NCBI GenBank assembly: GCA_021792405.1
Contig: JAJYUU010000005.1
Span: forward strand, 1 to 59,637
Source of the DNA: Actinomycetes bacterium
GTDB lineage: Bacteria; Actinomycetota; Actinomycetes; Streptosporangiales; Streptosporangiaceae
Direction of reading: 5' to 3'
DNA length: 59,637 bases
Positions 12,401-39,066 of this stretch are shown here, in pieces. Under the pieces are notes generated by a model. The model made no database searches. It was not told the origin of the DNA and saw only the letters and a program-made list of their open reading frames with translations. Numbering within the stretch: position 1 is the stretch's first letter; every line of letters begins with the position of its first letter. The position numbers and the translations under genes were made by a program.

Positions 12401-14122
12401 TCAGTGCCCCATCGCTACTTCGACGATGCGGACCACCACGGCACCCATCGCGATAGCCAGGTAGATCCACATTCCGGTCAGGGCGAGCCGCCGTCCGACG
12501 GACATCGGCGCCTGGGCGAGCATCGTCAGGGCCGGCATCCGCCAGTTCTCCTTGCTCATGCCTTCCGGCCGGGACAGCCGGTCAGGTTCGGCTTCACCGG
12601 CCTGCAGGGCCTGGTCAGGGCCGGCCGGCCGGCGGCCGCGTACCATGACGACGGCGACCGCGACCAGCGCGACGCCCGCGAATCCGATCATGATCAGCAG
12701 AATCTGCCGCGAGCTGATGTGCGGGAACGTCACCGACGCCACCAGGATCAGCGACAGCATGATCAGCAGGGCGATCACCGCGCCGGTGAAGGCGTTGGTG
12801 AACCGCCCGTTCACCCACGGCCCGAGTACCGCCTTGTCGTTGCACAGCAGCAGCAGGAAGACGGTCGCACTCGGCAGCAGAACGCCCGCCAGCACCTGGA
12901 CTCCCTCGGTGAACAGGCCGAGCGGTGAGCCGGGGATGAGCACGATCGTCGCGGCGCCGGCGACCAGCCCGCCGTACATGACGTAGAAGCCCTTGGCCTG
13001 CTTCACGCCCCGGTGCAGCGAGTGCTTGAGGCCGAGTACGTCACCGAGTGCGTAGGCGGTGGAGAGCGAGACCGCGAAAGCGCCGATCATCGCCGCATCC
13101 AGCAAGGCAACCGCGAACAACGCGCCTGCCACCCGGCCGGCCGATGCGGCGATCCCCGCGGCCAGCCCGGCCGCGTCGGTGTAGTGGCCTGCGGCTGACG
13201 TCCCGGCGAATGCGGCTGCCGCCGCGCCCATCAGCGCCGCGCCGCCCACGATGACGACGCCGATCCCGATGACCAGGTCCGCCTTCTCGTACGGGATGAA
13301 CCGCGGGGTGATGCGCTTGTCGATCACGTAGGACTGCTGGAAGAAGAGCTGCCAGGGCGCGACCGTGGTGCCGACAATCCCGATGATCAGCAGCATCACC
13401 GTGCTCAGCTGCCCGGCCCCGCCGGGCATGTTCGGCACCACGAACCCGGTCGCGACCTGGCCAGCCGCCGGGTGAGACAGCACGTAAAGCGGGATCAGCA
13501 GCAGCGACCCTGCGCAGAAGGCCATCGCGATGCGCTCGAACCTGCGGAAGCTCCCGGTCATGGCGGAAGCCACGATGACCAGCGCGGCCAGCAGCACGGC
13601 GACGATCTTGGGCACCCCGAGGTAGCCGGCCGCGAGCGTGATCCCGATGAACTCGGTGATGATGGTCAGCGCGTTGAGCAGGAACAAGTCGATGACGCTG
13701 AACGCGCCCCAGAACCTGCCGAACCGCTCCAGGATCAGCCGGGCGTGCCCGACTCCCGACACGGCGCCCAGCCTGAGCACCATCTCCTGGTTCACGTAAA
13801 GGACCGGGATCAGCAGCACGAACGTCCAGAGCAGATGCGTGCCATAGTTCTGGCCTGCCTGGCCGTAGGTGGAGAACGCGCCCGCGTCGTTATCGCCGAC
13901 CATCACGATCAGCCCAGGGCCGACAATCGCCAGCAGCGTCTTGAGCTTGGCGCTCGCCGACTTGCGCGCGGCGATGTCGTCGACGGAGATCGTGCCGAGC
14001 GCGCCGCGGATGTCGCCGACGTGCGCGGTGTCGAGCGCCGCCCCGTGGTCAGCGGCGGCGCGATCGGCTAGGGCACTGTGGTCAAGGGCCGCACGGCGGA
14101 GGCCGGAAGTCGCTGAGGTCAC
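12401..14122 (-). CDS. Nramp-related magnesium transporter (NRMT type)
   Basis: A 573-residue SLC11/Nramp-fold transporter with about eleven helices. Classic Nramps bind Mn/Fe with DPGN in helix 1 and a methionine in helix 6. Here helix 1 reads GDNDAGA (77-82, Asp79 kept, Asn position Ala82) and helix 6 reads GTTVAPWQLFFQQS (251-264, Ala255 where Met would be). Loss of the Met is the hallmark of the Nramp-related Mg2+ transporters described from Clostridium and Eggerthella. The gene follows an M-box Mg2+ riboswitch and a small upstream ORF, which independently supports magnesium as substrate. An unusual 60-residue hydrophilic N-terminus precedes helix 1. GTG start at 14122. Confidence 0.88.
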   Translation of the reverse strand: MTSATSGLRRAALDHSALADRAAADHGAALDTAHVGDIRGALGTISVDDIAARKSASAKLKTLLAIVGPGLIVMVGDNDAGAFSTYGQAGQNYGTHLLWTFVLLIPVLYVNQEMVLRLGAVSGVGHARLILERFGRFWGAFSVIDLFLLNALTIITEFIGITLAAGYLGVPKIVAVLLAALVIVASAMTGSFRRFERIAMAFCAGSLLLIPLYVLSHPAAGQVATGFVVPNMPGGAGQLSTVMLLIIGIVGTTVAPWQLFFQQSYVIDKRITPRFIPYEKADLVIGIGVVIVGGAALMGAAAAAFAGTSAAGHYTDAAGLAAGIAASAGRVAGALFAVALLDAAMIGAFAVSLSTAYALGDVLGLKHSLHRGVKQAKGFYVMYGGLVAGAATIVLIPGSPLGLFTEGVQVLAGVLLPSATVFLLLLCNDKAVLGPWVNGRFTNAFTGAVIALLIMLSLILVASVTFPHISSRQILLIMIGFAGVALVAVAVVMVRGRRPAGPDQALQAGEAEPDRLSRPEGMSKENWRMPALTMLAQAPMSVGRRLALTGMWIYLAIAMGAVVVRIVEVAMGH

Positions 14123-14192
14123 GTCGGATCACCCCGTTCACCGCCGTTGCCACGGCGGGATCAGGGGGCACGCACGACCCGGTCGGGCGGCC

Positions 14193-14297
14193 TCAGGCTG
14201 TCAGGCTGCGGCCGATGACCAGGTTCACGCGTACGTGCCCAGGGGAGGCAGGATTAGCGGCGAGGGGCCATTTTCGGCCCGGACTATCAGAGTCCAT
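14193..14297 (-). CDS. 34-codon upstream ORF in the Mg transporter leader
   Basis: An ATG at 14297 preceded by a strong GGAAGGAGG (7 nt spacing) opens a 34-codon frame starting MDSDSPGRKWP and ending IGRSLTA, closed by TGA at 14195-14193. It lies between the M-box and the transporter start, about 70 nt before the latter. The early Asp-Ser-Asp-Ser-Pro run recalls leader peptides whose acidic and proline codons make translation sensitive to low Mg2+ (MgtL type). The shine-dalgarno is stronger than that of the transporter itself. A regulatory role is inference. Confidence 0.6.
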   Translation of the reverse strand: MDSDSPGRKWPLAANPASPGHVRVNLVIGRSLTA

Positions 14298-14427
14298 TGC
14301 TCGCCTCCTTCCCGCCGCGGTCCGACCGCGTCATGCCCGGCCGCCCGCCAGGCGGCGGGCATGCCCGTAATCAGGCACCGCACGAGACAGCGACCGCCGC
14401 GCGCGGATCCGCCACGGCGAGGCACCC

Positions 14428-14586
14428 CCTCGTTAGAGCTTTGGCACTTCACGGCGTAGCGCGCCCAGAGGTTGCGCAGCCACCTGGCCTCACCCCTTAC
14501 TCCGGGGAGAGGTGTCCTGATCCGGAGCGTCTCTCGACGGGTGGGATCAGTGGCCTGTGTCCGTGAAGACGCCTCACCGAACAAGG
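14428..14586 (-). ncRNA. M-box (ykoK) Mg2+ riboswitch
   Basis: Read on the minus strand, the 159-nt element has all the hallmark M-box blocks in order: GGTGAGGC, ACACAGGCCACTG, GTCGAGAGACGC, GTAAGGGGTGAGG, GTGCCAAAGCTCTAACGAGG. Helix P1 pairs CCTTGTT (14586-14580) with AACGAGG (14434-14428). The 3' arm of P1 can instead fold as CGAGG-GGGTG-CCTCG with the sequence just downstream, a plausible switch. It leads into the upstream ORF and the Nramp-related transporter. High Mg2+ would be expected to stabilise the aptamer and lower expression. Confidence 0.95.
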
Positions 14587-14609
14587 TGTCCGTATTACAC
14601 AGCTTCTTG

Positions 14610-14639: not shown

Positions 14640-14791
14640 GCTGGCGGACATCTCGGGCAGGCAGTCATCCCCGCTACCCTTGATGCGGCACCTCAGGGCA
14701 GGAGCGCGGAACCGCCCGGCCTCCAGCCACGCGCCACCGCAATGGTATGAAGGCCACGTCAGGTGCCGGCAGAAGGGGAGGGCGCTGCAGC

Positions 14792-17326
14792 GTGGCCATA
14801 CGACGAGCTGTCGGCAGGCTGACGCGGCGAGGCGACCTGGCTGAGGGGCTTGGCTACACCCTGAAGCGCAGGCTGCTCGGCAAGCCGCTCATCAACGAGC
14901 AGCTAGGCGAGCAGCGGCTGACCAAGACGCTGGCGCTCGGCGTGCTGTCGCCGGACGGCATCTCCTCGTCGGCCTACGGCACCGAGGAAATCCTGATCGA
15001 GCTCATGCTCGGCGGCCTGGGCGTCAGTGCGTTCACGGTGCTGCTCCCGATCACTGGCGTTGTCCTGTTCGTCATGGTGCTCGTGGTGCTGTCTTACCGC
15101 GAAGTCGTCATGGTTTACACCAGGGCCGGCGGATCGTACGTCGTGGCCAGGGACAACTTCGGCCCGCGGGTCGCCCAGATAGCGGCCCTGGCGCTGCTGG
15201 TGGACTATGTGGTCACCGTCGCGGTGCAGATCGCTGCCGGGACGGCCGCCGTGGCGTCGGCGTTCCCGAGACAGCTGAGCAGCCCGGCAACGCTGACGCT
15301 GATCTCCATCGGCGTGGTGCTGCTGATGCTCTACGGCAACCTGCGCGGCATCCGGGAGGCTGGCAAGGCCTTCGCCGTGCCCACGTACCTGTTCTCGGCG
15401 GTGATGATCATCACGATCGCCATCGGCCTGGTGCGGGAGTTCTTCTTCTCCCTGCCGCAGTGGCACGTTCACTGCCCGCCAGGCATCGTGCACTGTACCT
15501 ACGAGCAGGCGGCCGCGCCGAGCCACAGCGGCTTGATCACCTTCGGGCTGATCTTCGTGATGCTGCGGGCATTCGCCAATGGCGGGTCGTCGCTCACCGG
15601 CATCGAGGCGGTATCGAATGCGGTGAGCGCATTCAAGCCGCCCGAGGGCATCAACGCGCGCCGGGTCCTGGTGTACGAGGGCGCGATCCTCGGCACCCTG
15701 GTGGCCGGCATCTCCTGGCTGGCGCACGTGACGCACGCCCAGCCCTACACCACCGGCGTGCCGACGGTCATCTCGCAGGAAGCCCAGCTGGTCTTCGGGA
15801 CGTCGGTCTTCGGGCATGTCATGTATGCCGTCGTGCAGGCAGCAACCGCGCTCATCCTCTATACCGGCGGCAATACCAGCTTCAACGGCTTCCCGTTCCT
15901 GGCCAGCTTCGTCGCCGAGGACGCGTTCCTGCCCCGATGGCTGACCAAGCGCGGGCACCGGCTGGTGTTCTCCAGCGGGATCATCGTGCTGGCGACCGTG
16001 TCGATCACCCTGCTCGCGGTGGTCGGGTCGAACGTCAACAGGCTGGTGCCGTTCTACGCGCTCGGCGTGTTCACCGCCTTCACCATGGCCGGCTTCGGCA
16101 TGGCCAAGTACCACCACCGGATGCGCGAGCCGGGCTGGAAGCGCAAGCTGGTGATTAACTTCTCCGCTGGCGTCACGTCCCTGGTCGTGGTGCTGATCTT
16201 CGCGATCGTCAAGTTCACCGAGGGCGCCTGGCTGGTCGTAATCCTGTTCATCGTCGGCGTCCCGGTGCTGATCCGGCTCAACCGCCAGTACCGGATGGAG
16301 GCCGCGGCCCTTGAGAACATCGAAAGCCGCGGCAAGCCCCCCGAGCCGCCTACGTACTCGCGCCGCAGCGTTTTCGTCTTCATCGACGACCTCGACCTGG
16401 CCACGATCGCTGCACTGCGGTACGCGCGCAGCCTGCGGCCCACCTCACTGCGCGCCGTGCACTTCGTCATCGACAACGTCCAGGCTGACAAGCTCCGGCA
16501 GGACTGGGTGCGGGCCAATACCGGCATCCCGCTCGATTTCGTCGACTGCCCGGACCGCCGTCTGGCCTCCGCGGCAGCCACCCTGGTCAGCGCCGAGGCG
16601 GCGCTGCCCGGCGTGGGCGTGACCGCGATCCTGCCGCGACGCAGCTTCGCACCCATCGTCGGCCGCCTGCTACATGACCGCACCGCAGACAAGATGGCCG
16701 CGGTGATCAGCCGGATTCCGCACGCCGCCGCCACGATCGTGCCCTTCGACGTGCGCAGCAGGGTAGAGAGCCTGGCCCGGCGCGGTCAGCCAGCCGGACT
16801 CGGAGCCGATGGCACCGAGCCCGAGCCGCAGGCCGAGAGCCGGGCCGGCCTGCCGGCGGCTGCCCCGGCCACGACGCCACCGCGCAGCCGCCGGGCGCGA
16901 GCCGGGGCGGAGCAGCCGGTCGCCGCGGACCTCACCACGCCGGCAGGCGACGAGTACAGCCGCCCGGTTCCGCGGCCGGGGGTGACGCCGATCGGCTCGC
17001 TGCGGCGGCCTGGCCGGGCCGTTGCCGAAGGACGGGTGCATACGGTTGAGATCCGCCCTGTGGAGCGCAACACCGTGCTGGCCTGCGACGTAGAAGATTC
17101 CACCGGGCAGCTGACCGCCCTGTTTTACGGCCGGTCGAACATTCCCGGCCTGCGGCCGGGCTCCAAGGTGCGGCTGCGGGGCCAGGTCGGCATCCGGGAC
17201 GGCAGGCCTGTCATGATCAACCCCGCCTATGAACTGCTCGCCCCCGGCGTGGCGAGCACGGACGACCCCGAACCCGGTGTCCAGCGCGGAACCGGCCAGG
17301 ACCAGCGGGACGAACCCGGACAATGA
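14792..17326 (+). CDS. APC permease fused to USP-like and C-terminal OB-fold domains
   Basis: An amino-acid/polyamine/organocation-type permease with about twelve helices (about residues 45-505), starting after LGVLSPDGISSSAYGTEEIL. A soluble part begins SRRSVFVFIDDLDLATIAALRYA and looks like a universal-stress-protein-type domain. After a Pro/Arg-rich linker the last 85 residues form an OB-fold: AEGRVHTVEIRP, LFYGRSNIPGLRPGSKVRLRG, DGRPVMINPAYELL. This OB type occurs as a separate gene near related permeases in mycobacteria (Rv2694c type). The GTG at 14792 follows AAGGGGAGG; an ATG at 14747 has no ribosome site. Substrate unknown. The stop overlaps the CDF start (ATGA). Confidence 0.85.
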   Translation: MAIRRAVGRLTRRGDLAEGLGYTLKRRLLGKPLINEQLGEQRLTKTLALGVLSPDGISSSAYGTEEILIELMLGGLGVSAFTVLLPITGVVLFVMVLVVLSYREVVMVYTRAGGSYVVARDNFGPRVAQIAALALLVDYVVTVAVQIAAGTAAVASAFPRQLSSPATLTLISIGVVLLMLYGNLRGIREAGKAFAVPTYLFSAVMIITIAIGLVREFFFSLPQWHVHCPPGIVHCTYEQAAAPSHSGLITFGLIFVMLRAFANGGSSLTGIEAVSNAVSAFKPPEGINARRVLVYEGAILGTLVAGISWLAHVTHAQPYTTGVPTVISQEAQLVFGTSVFGHVMYAVVQAATALILYTGGNTSFNGFPFLASFVAEDAFLPRWLTKRGHRLVFSSGIIVLATVSITLLAVVGSNVNRLVPFYALGVFTAFTMAGFGMAKYHHRMREPGWKRKLVINFSAGVTSLVVVLIFAIVKFTEGAWLVVILFIVGVPVLIRLNRQYRMEAAALENIESRGKPPEPPTYSRRSVFVFIDDLDLATIAALRYARSLRPTSLRAVHFVIDNVQADKLRQDWVRANTGIPLDFVDCPDRRLASAAATLVSAEAALPGVGVTAILPRRSFAPIVGRLLHDRTADKMAAVISRIPHAAATIVPFDVRSRVESLARRGQPAGLGADGTEPEPQAESRAGLPAAAPATTPPRSRRARAGAEQPVAADLTTPAGDEYSRPVPRPGVTPIGSLRRPGRAVAEGRVHTVEIRPVERNTVLACDVEDSTGQLTALFYGRSNIPGLRPGSKVRLRGQVGIRDGRPVMINPAYELLAPGVASTDDPEPGVQRGTGQDQRDEPGQ

Positions 17327-18432
17327 ACGCCGCTCAGCCGCCCGGCCGCGATCAGACCCCGGATCACGGCAGGGAACCCCGGACACCGCACCCCGGCACC
17401 GCGCCAGAGCGCGACGAGGCGATCACGCACGGCGATACTGGACAGTCCGCGCACGAGCGCCGGCGGCCCGTCGCCCCGCAGGCCGGCAGGCGCGACAGTG
17501 ACGGCCAGCGGCACGGACATCACGCGCACGGCGGCGGCGGCCAGACCGTGACCGGCAGCTACCGGCGCGCCCTGACCGTCGTTCTGCTGATCAGCCTGGG
17601 GATCGCTGCGGCCGAGGTGATCGGCGGGGCGCTCACCGGCGCGCTGGTGCTCTTCGCCGACGCCGCGCACATGGCCGCTGACGCGGGCGGCATCGCATTG
17701 TCGCTGCTGGCAGCCTGGTTCGCGGCCCGCCCGGCTACCGGCCGGCGCACCTTCGGTTACGCCAGGGCCGAGATCCTGGCCGCGATGGCCAACGCCCTGG
17801 TGCTGCTGGGCATGACCGCGCTGATCATCACCGAGGCAATCCGGCGGCTGCCCGCACCGCCGGCGGTGAGCTCCGGGCTGCTGATCGCGTTCGGCATCGG
17901 CGCGCTGGCAGCCAACGCCTGCTCACTGCTCGTCCTGCGGCACGGGCAGGCCGAGAGCCTGAACGTACGCAGCGCGTTCCTGGAGGTAGCCGCCGATACC
18001 CTGGGCGCCGCCGCGGTGATCGTGACCGGGATCATCATCAGCGCGACCGGCTACCTGCTGGCCGACCCGGTGGCCTCACTCGCGGTCGGCGCGGCGATCC
18101 TGCCGCGCACCTGGCGCTTGCTCAGGGAAGCTGTCGACATCCTGCTCGAGGCCAGCCCGGCGGGCATCGACCTAGCCCAGATCCGCGAGCACCTGGCCGC
18201 CGTGCCCGGCATCCGCGAGGTGCACGAGCTGCACGTCTGGACGATCACCTCCGGGCTGCCGGTTTTCTCGGCGCACGTCGTGGTCGACCCGGCCGTCATT
18301 GAGGACGGCCAGACCGCGATCATGCTGGATCAGCTGCAAGAGTGCCTGCGCGGGCACTTCGACGTGGACCATTCGACATTCCAGCTCGAACCGGCCGGGC
18401 ACGCCGACCACGAGCAGCCCATGCACGAATAG
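17323..18432 (+). CDS. CDF family metal cation exporter
   Basis: Proton-coupled efflux of Zn2+ or similar divalent cations. A long hydrophilic N-terminus ends in a His/Gly-rich stretch (GQRHGHHAHGGGG). Six helices follow. The transport site in helix 2 is ADAAHMAADAGG (His and Asp kept), while helix 5 reads FLEVAADTLGA with Glu where zinc exporters such as ZitB/CzcD have His. A cytoplasmic ferredoxin-like domain ends the protein (VHELHVWTITSG). The ATG overlaps the permease stop by 4 nt. The HD-ED site may alter metal preference; the substrate is not proven. Confidence 0.9.
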   Translation: MNAAQPPGRDQTPDHGREPRTPHPGTAPERDEAITHGDTGQSAHERRRPVAPQAGRRDSDGQRHGHHAHGGGGQTVTGSYRRALTVVLLISLGIAAAEVIGGALTGALVLFADAAHMAADAGGIALSLLAAWFAARPATGRRTFGYARAEILAAMANALVLLGMTALIITEAIRRLPAPPAVSSGLLIAFGIGALAANACSLLVLRHGQAESLNVRSAFLEVAADTLGAAAVIVTGIIISATGYLLADPVASLAVGAAILPRTWRLLREAVDILLEASPAGIDLAQIREHLAAVPGIREVHELHVWTITSGLPVFSAHVVVDPAVIEDGQTAIMLDQLQECLRGHFDVDHSTFQLEPAGHADHEQPMHE

Positions 18433-38926: not shown

Positions 38927-38987
38927 CGTGGACGCCGCGGCCAGGCGGCTGCGCCGGGGCGGCCCAAGCGCTGCCTGAGCCTGGAAA

Positions 38988-39066
38988 TGGGGCGACCCCC
39001 GTCGGGGGGGAGAACGGGGGTCGCCATACGGTCCGGCTCCGGGGGGGCAGAGCCGGGTCCGTTACC
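38988..39066 (-). ncRNA. 6C RNA
   Basis: Read on the minus strand, two adjacent hairpins each expose seven cytosines in the loop: stem 39056-39050/39039-39033 with loop containing C7, then an 11-bp stem 39025-39015/39001-38991 with loop containing C7. Paired C-rich hairpins are the definition of the actinobacterial 6C RNA (B11 in Mycobacterium). A TAGGCT -10 (39078-39073) predicts a start near 39066. It lies 60 nt beyond the helicase stop on the opposite strand and may also terminate that gene. Confidence 0.88.

Follow-up and report, generated by a model that had tools for sequence, protein, structure and literature searches.

The leader of an NRAMP-type transporter gene in a member of the Streptosporangiaceae carries both a Mg2+ riboswitch and a short upstream open reading frame (uORF) ahead of the gene. 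The window, that is, the whole analysed stretch of 59,637 nucleotides from Actinomycetes bacterium contig JAJYUU010000005.1, contains on its minus strand a complete M-box (ykoK) Mg2+ riboswitch aptamer at 14419..14592 (Rfam RF00380, 132.8 bits; gathering score 44). The first ORF behind the aptamer is the uORF, and no U-run terminator was seen by eye after the aptamer. The uORF occupies 14193..14297 (-), from an ATG at 14297 to a stop at 14193, and its 34 codons encode the peptide MDSDSPGRKWPLAANPASPGHVRVNLVIGRSLTA (MDSDSPGRKWP...). The transporter gene follows at 12401..14122 (-) with a GTG start at 14122 (Pfam PF01566 (Nramp), 1.1e-71). Its best PDB sequence match is 7qia, which we take to be an NRAMP-related Mg2+ transporter; with an M-box upstream, the window's NRAMP protein is probably a Mg2+ transporter too. 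The preliminary description had placed a 34-codon ORF between M-box and transporter and credited it with the better ribosome site, and both statements hold: the uORF has the Shine-Dalgarno sequence (SD) GGAAGGAGG (14304..14312, -), 6 nt before its ATG and conserved in relatives, whereas the transporter GTG has a weaker, GGGG-type SD. Divergent from the M-box, positions 14747-18432 (+) encode an 859-aa protein that matches amino-acid permease, with a weak C-terminal OB-fold match, and then a cation-efflux (ZT-dimer) protein, and a 6C RNA lies at 38987-39063 (-) (58.8 bits).

Several properties of the leader exceed what shuffled sequence yields. The stretch 14418-14100 folds better than its shuffles (z -4.86, 0/100), and among 20,000 dinucleotide shuffles of the leader an AGGAGG with a well-spaced ATG opening at least 30 codons arose 8 times, while an AGGAGG SD with a start and a [SRKT]PG[HR] core never arose. 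Searches of Pfam with the window peptide, and of NCBIfam with the window peptide and those of two relatives, returned no family. The conserved N-terminal core, ATG GAC TCT GAT AGT CCG GGC C (14276..14297, -, from alignment with relatives), occurs exactly only at the window site in its own genome, where 41 matches with up to two mismatches compare with 45 for a backward control. A sequence-only uORF model, R1, built from 40 M-box leaders that did not include the window, matched the window uORF in its genome with 47.2 bits (E 7.8e-12).

Relatives of this uORF are found behind most of the actinobacterial M-boxes examined. RF00380 searches of 60, 297 and 394 genomes, in partly overlapping sets, supplied 102 M-box leaders, four partial or below-cut-off matches being left out. 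A filter recovered an SD-led uORF in 91 of them, some similar only weakly; three found by eye (L030, L049, L063) and two that start at a GTG two bases behind the ATG chosen by the script (L078, L085) bring the total to 96/102. Leaders without an intact uORF include one that has none (L019), two that have lost the start (L060, L088) and one that ends at a contig edge (L032). Two further leaders (L096, L102) carry ATT in place of the uORF ATG, with the following codons conserved, and the NRAMP genes of L017 and L018 have an apparent ATT start. A second set, in which 44 of 80 NRAMP loci hold 46 M-boxes among the matches listed, has an in-frame uORF in 45 of the 46 leaders; the exception is L122b, which is out of frame, and L117 has a long SD spacing. 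Since several loci recur across both sets, the 148 leaders reduce to 142 distinct ones.

The family is present in Streptomyces, Kitasatospora, Amycolatopsis, Streptacidiphilus and others, and only weak likeness is seen in Leifsonia, Arthrobacter and L179. A typical form is MDSDSPGRSRPYPPLSLPVPGTR in the window's bacterial family and MDCSSPGHSRP... in Streptomyces and Kitasatospora, and the forms MSSSDSPGRSP and MSPGDSPYP occur in genomes with PE-type genes, taken as Mycobacterium. In Streptomycetaceae, an R1 match lies within 200 nt downstream of 102 of 118 M-boxes, the remaining 16 having no R1 match behind them. Judged by sequence, the window uORF belongs to the Rv1805A-like uORF family, whose range exceeds the published one.

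What the family conserves was examined with a start chosen by SD position only and a core placed by DNA similarity irrespective of frame. Of the 142 distinct leaders, 26 lacked a clear core and 5 lacked a start, leaving 111 testable leaders. In 108 of these the start-to-core distance is divisible by three, at spacings of 3, 9, 12, 15, 18 and 21 nt; the three exceptions are L122b and the pair L078 and L085, both of which read in frame if the GTG two bases later is taken as the start. The strict motif PG[HR] appears in 66/132 non-redundant uORFs. A slightly wider pattern matched 67 cores, in which the Ser before the core is AGT in 48/48 and the Ser after it in 35/35, and the core His codons vary (CAT 22, CAC 17). 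In the NRAMP genes of the listed loci, by comparison, AGT accounts for 15 of 853 Ser codons. The nearly invariant frame and the exclusive use of AGT together mean that both reading frame and nucleotides seem to matter, and the recurrent trait of the family, to go by these alignments, is a [Ser/Arg]-Pro-Gly-[His/Arg] core with AGU serines, not acidic or proline repeats.

The second half of the uORF behaves otherwise. In the closest relative, L012, whose NRAMP protein is 97.8% identical over the aligned part, the first 15 uORF residues are the same, and beyond them substitutions and a 1-nt deletion change the C-terminus. Length ranges from 13 to 57 residues across the family. Protein conservation is, on this comparison, limited to the N-terminal part, and the C-terminal half appears not to be constrained as protein. 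The preliminary description had named conservation behind M-boxes as its own check; start, frame, ribosome site and N-terminal motif pass it.

The uORF also occurs where no riboswitch is found. Of the 36 listed NRAMP loci at which no M-box reaches the gathering score, 11 retain SD, uORF and core (L106, L107, L110, L111, L119, L137, L139, L143, L151, L161, L163); their best motif matches agree in 13-17 of 18 bases and carry SD and start, matches of 12-13 bases without an SD having been excluded. A permissive M-box scan of 10 of these loci (all but L107) found none, and by eye only the last aptamer bases remain at L106 and L111 and only its 5' half at L139. G006, a member of the window's own genus, carries the uORF MDHDSPGRRWPP upstream of an NRAMP gene and has no M-box there.

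A broader view came from R1 searches of 394 genomes of the class, 150 of the family and 200 Streptomycetaceae. The model is insensitive outside its training range (5 genomes of the class set matched, vs 26 by RF00380), and in Streptomycetaceae it gave at least 150 matches in 87 genomes, where RF00380 marked 118 places in 78 genomes. Of the 150 R1 matches listed, 102 follow an M-box at a distance of at most 200 nt; for the other 48 no M-box was reported. The downstream genes of 40 of these 48 were typed by tblastn to Pfam-checked references: 18 are CorA genes (one of them, at L295, broken into pieces), 6 encode an MgtE_N domain, 4 are MgtC and 3 NRAMP, and the others encode a protein of about 150 residues (3), MFS proteins (2) or other products (4). 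Mg2+-related families thus follow in 31/40, and 21/40 stand before transporters in the strict sense, CorA or NRAMP. Among the 31 Mg2+-related loci, only L297 had no uORF core called by the script (30/31). A permissive Rfam scan (E 0.1) that covered 36 of the 40 loci (all but L293, L295, L296 and L297; only 114 nt upstream at L260) found no match in any of them. The same scan (E 0.1) of L216, L217, L218 and L221 had no match either. In the window's bacterial family, L217 and L218 carry MDGCSSPGHDRP before a Mg2+ P-type ATPase gene, divergent from MgtC; the ATPase of L217 is a fragment in its locus.

Some matches were set aside. The R1 match in G149 (L220) was rejected, as script output had no SD-led uORF there, and those before MFS genes (L222, L293, L296), whose leaders are similar to the uORF at the RNA level, use another frame (VAAIVASGRVP..GAR*) and were not counted in the family. 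Two kinds of downstream gene are worth recording. The four complete MgtE_N proteins that were checked (L287, L290, L291, L292) combine MgtE_N with CBS and have no MgtE membrane domain; they are possibly regulatory partners of a Mg2+ channel. The protein of about 150 residues, apparently hydrophobic, follows the same uORF type at L270 (L270:1055-1531), L279 and L294; neither Pfam nor NCBIfam matches the L270 copy, and the protein is a candidate for an unknown Mg2+-related protein.

Taken at the level of sequence, then, the uORF is separable from the M-box and stands before several unrelated Mg2+-related genes with or without a riboswitch, which is the new result here; apparently it is a control step in its own right. 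What precedes it at riboswitch-less loci can be glimpsed from a TTGCG..CGCAA-type palindrome, present upstream at 11/57 such sites vs 0/102 M-box sites and 37/4000 background windows, a comparison in which the pattern was chosen after some of the sites had been seen and in which L139 and L215 look like one record. The palindrome lies near the promoter at L110, L111, L119, L137, L143, L217, L218, L219, L221, L264 and L284. This suggests that promoter control may replace the riboswitch at these loci. At L219, an ArsR/SmtB gene lies downstream of the palindrome, and a metalloregulator may act in place of the M-box.

The leader around the uORF contains further RNA elements. The gap between aptamer and uORF SD holds a GC-rich hairpin in the window (14333..14366, -; the pairing itself is predicted), a possible counterpart, from its sequence and place, of the GGCAC..GTGCC hairpin of relatives. 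A possible hairpin within the uORF, GGGCC-GAAAAU-GGCCC (14265..14280, -), has five pairs which, at fixed columns, 34 to 40 of the 40 relatives can form; the pairs are mostly invariant with one double change, so that the 40 relatives give no covariation support, and single examples of a GGGUC/GACCC version occur at L108 and L262. The RNAalifold consensus omits this hairpin and has instead 3 pairs between the SD region and the core, with no double change. In several relatives the 3' arm, GGCCC, is displaced by one base relative to the frame, turning Arg-Pro into Gln-Ala or Arg-Ala.

Farther along, many relatives end the uORF in GGC ACG CGG TAA, and 42/132 peptides end in GTR. The RNA at this position, element C, pairs in relatives with element D (CGCGTGCC), which lies farther downstream before the SD of the gene; variants read from the alignment keep the pairing (GGCACACGC with GCGTGTGCC, GGCATGCGG with CTGCATGCC). 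Duplex energies with own vs other partners show a moderate effect, the own partner beating half of the others in 42/60 and standing in the top tenth in 16/60. Where a pattern found element C, it keeps the frame of the uORF in 68 leaders and departs from it in 9, and therefore the GTR* ending seems to follow the RNA. In the window, C (GGGCACG..., 14228..14240, -) forms the 5' arm of a long stem with D (CGTGCGTGCCCC, 14165..14178, -, by sequence pairing); it was missed by the pattern and lies at offset 58 in frame +1, out of frame with the uORF, and the longer and different C-terminus of the window peptide would therefore be tolerated. An anti-SD/SD hairpin precedes the transporter (14132..14162, -), resembling GATCCCGC..GCGTGAAAGGGG in relatives. 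A pairing of the hairpin before the SD with C was dropped, as the two hairpins vary independently in the alignment. Pairing of the upstream region with the uORF translation initiation region (TIR), computed with RNAduplex, was not stronger than shuffled and was likewise rejected (136 leaders, median z 0.09). In the same 136 leaders the CTCCT anti-SD motif is enriched upstream of the uORF (44/136, 6.6 expected) and aptamer-end pairing with the TIR is slightly stronger than shuffled (median z -0.37); the window's upstream region contains no CTCC.

The composition of the uORF's second half bears on how it might act. From codon 11 to the stop, C averages 0.40 and G 0.24, with C exceeding G in 112/116 uORFs of up to 30 codons and a peak +45 nt from the start; riboswitch-less copies have C 0.52 and G 0.22, with C exceeding G in 36/36. 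They also have AGT for the Ser before [PTA]G in 36/36 where the motif was found. The C-rich, G-poor (rut-like) stretch of the window, assigned from the family composition, lies at 14238..14267 (-). By composition the family has a stretch of the kind that Rho could enter and translation could cover, and the choice of amino acids may account for part of the skew. For M. tuberculosis, published work reports ribosome binding and reporter expression of the corresponding uORF2, SD-based M-box control (from reporters in M. smegmatis) and Rho-dependent termination inside the leader (D'Halluin et al., 2026; PMC12810186). Together with these published results, the C-rich stretch makes masking of Rho entry by translation the simplest model.

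We consider it fairly probable that the uORF acts in cis, its translation gating Rho-dependent expression, with M-box or promoter control upstream. The uORF would be translated, and ribosomes on it would shield its C-rich second half from Rho. At high Mg2+ the closed M-box would sequester the uORF SD and leave the uORF untranslated; with no translation, or with elongation halted at the core, Rho would load and the transporter mRNA would be shortened. In the window, the M-box would thus govern uORF initiation, and the uORF would decide if transcription gets as far as the transporter; at loci without an M-box the uORF would be under promoter control only. Against the Rho step, the main termination site or 3' end in M. 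tuberculosis lies upstream of the uORF in the published portion cited (PMC12810186), and enteric mgtL and corL are described as acting inversely (PMC11282234, PMC11552253). Release of the transporter SD by uORF ribosomes was rejected as a general mechanism, the mean unpaired probability being 0.28 free, 0.30 early and 0.29 at the stop in 49 leaders; the predicted values for the window's transporter SD are 0.12 free, 0.12 at the stop and 0.33 with the whole uORF covered. A wider proposal, which we advance only tentatively and would not bet on at even terms, is that the uORF family is a common riboswitch-independent translational gate on NRAMP, CorA, MgtE_N, MgtC and Mg2+ P-type ATPase genes, in which ribosome passage over the AGU-(Pro)-Gly-[His/Arg] core would read the effect of Mg2+ on the ribosome and set Rho termination, with M-boxes and the TTGCG..CGCAA operator as interchangeable upstream inputs.

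The preliminary description took the uORF for a possible second Mg2+ sensor working through its acidic start. A second gate, in the form of a leader ORF in series with the riboswitch, is supported by the link of the uORF to Mg2+-transport and related genes, which needs no riboswitch; Mg2+ sensing by acidic codons finds no such support as a trait of the family. An MgtL-like sensor would have Asp2, Asp4 and Pro6 destabilise ribosomes at low Mg2+, so that drop-off, not translation, activates the transporter. The window does have acidic residues near its start (D2, D4), in the position and spacing of the MgtL Glu2/Asp4 (EPDP) motif in the cited text (PMC11282234), mgtQ is reported to need Asp2 and Glu5 (PMC8092293), and riboswitch-less uORFs precede Mg2+-transport and related genes as such a sensor might. 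The alternating Asp/Ser (DSDSP) start nevertheless proves local: acidic residues at both 2 and 4 are found in only 23/133 non-redundant uORFs, all from the window's bacterial family (vs 0/33 SD-led window ORFs), and an acidic pair, adjacent or one apart, within residues 2-8 in 31/133 (vs 4/33), leaving 110/133 and 102/133 without the respective pair. Mean D+E+P over residues 2-11 is 2.9 in 142 uORFs vs 1.5 in 33 controls, the conserved Pro contributing a large share, and most uORFs before CorA, MgtE_N and MgtC genes have at most one acidic residue near the start. Moreover, the condition under which the uORF aborts would be the very one in which the M-box opens it, and early drop-off at low Mg2+ would, in the Rho model, turn the importer off, which is the wrong sign. 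Such a sensor is accordingly unlikely as an account of the uORF; by analogy, ribosome destabilisation by the acidic start is possible in the window's lineage, and it is not the family's recurrent feature.

Two other readings assign the conservation to the product or to the RNA. That the uORF encodes a small protein acting in trans, for instance a transporter subunit, as suggested for Rv1805A, would fit the conserved N-terminus and the M-box-independent mycobacterial homolog Rv0115A described in the cited part of PMC12810186; we hold it very unlikely given that a frameshift alters the C-terminus between close relatives, that lengths range from 13 to 57 residues, and that the C-terminal RNA element is out of frame in several relatives. 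The converse, that a structured RNA is what matters and the frame is incidental, draws on AGU conservation beyond the amino acid, on the GGCCC arm that slips against the frame and on the C:D pairing. This too is highly improbable, with the frame kept across six spacings in 108/111 leaders, SD and start conserved, and uORF2 ribosome-bound and reporter-expressed in M. tuberculosis (PMC12810186, in the part cited). Translation of the uORF in cis, gating expression of the gene behind it, remains the preferred reading.

In 2026 a leader peptide was described as specific to mycobacteria and of no known role, so far as the cited text states. Here it turns out to be spread through actinobacteria, and its uORF goes with Mg2+-transport and related genes themselves rather than with the riboswitch or PE/PPE genes. 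The riboswitch-less leaders of Streptomyces would allow the uORF to be studied alone, and with it the question of whether actinobacterial ribosomes sense Mg2+, as proposed for enteric mgtL and corL. Open-licence PMC literature contained no report of the uORF outside mycobacteria or before actinobacterial CorA, MgtE, MgtC or MgtA genes, a search that leaves subscription papers outside its scope and does not prove absence, and the consulted part of a survey of new RNAs does not show it (PMC11109978).

The closest known system is uORF2 of the M. tuberculosis pe20 M-box leader (Rv1805A, with Rv1535A and Rv0115A), which its authors call mycobacteria-specific (D'Halluin et al., 2026; PMC12810186). 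Like the Rv1805A-type uORF2, the window uORF sits behind an M-box and upstream of the target gene, and it shares a strong SD, a short ORF and a conserved N-terminus with Pro. The string SDSPGR is common to the window and to MSSSDSPGRSP of L040 (genus g34, taken as Mycobacterium from its PE-type downstream genes); Pro is at 6 in the window and at 7 in most of the peptides given in PMC12810186, and the likeness to Rv1805A is drawn through the g34 loci and the paper's peptides. The restriction of uORF2 to Mycobacterium in the published text does not hold here, which corrects its range, not its identity. Unlike the published uORF2, as there described, the family also stands before CorA, MgtE_N, MgtC, Mg2+ ATPase and NRAMP genes without an M-box. 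As for the M-box itself (RF00380), a complete aptamer lies upstream of the window uORF, and elsewhere the uORF persists without it. Enterobacterial mgtL, corL and mgtQ, in the portions of their literature cited above, resemble the uORF in being short ORFs that precede a Mg2+ transporter and control it through their translation, and MgtL and the window uORF are both acidic at residues 2 and 4. No sequence shared with these leaders was seen by eye, and, in contrast to them as described in those portions, a single actinobacterial uORF family serves several gene families.
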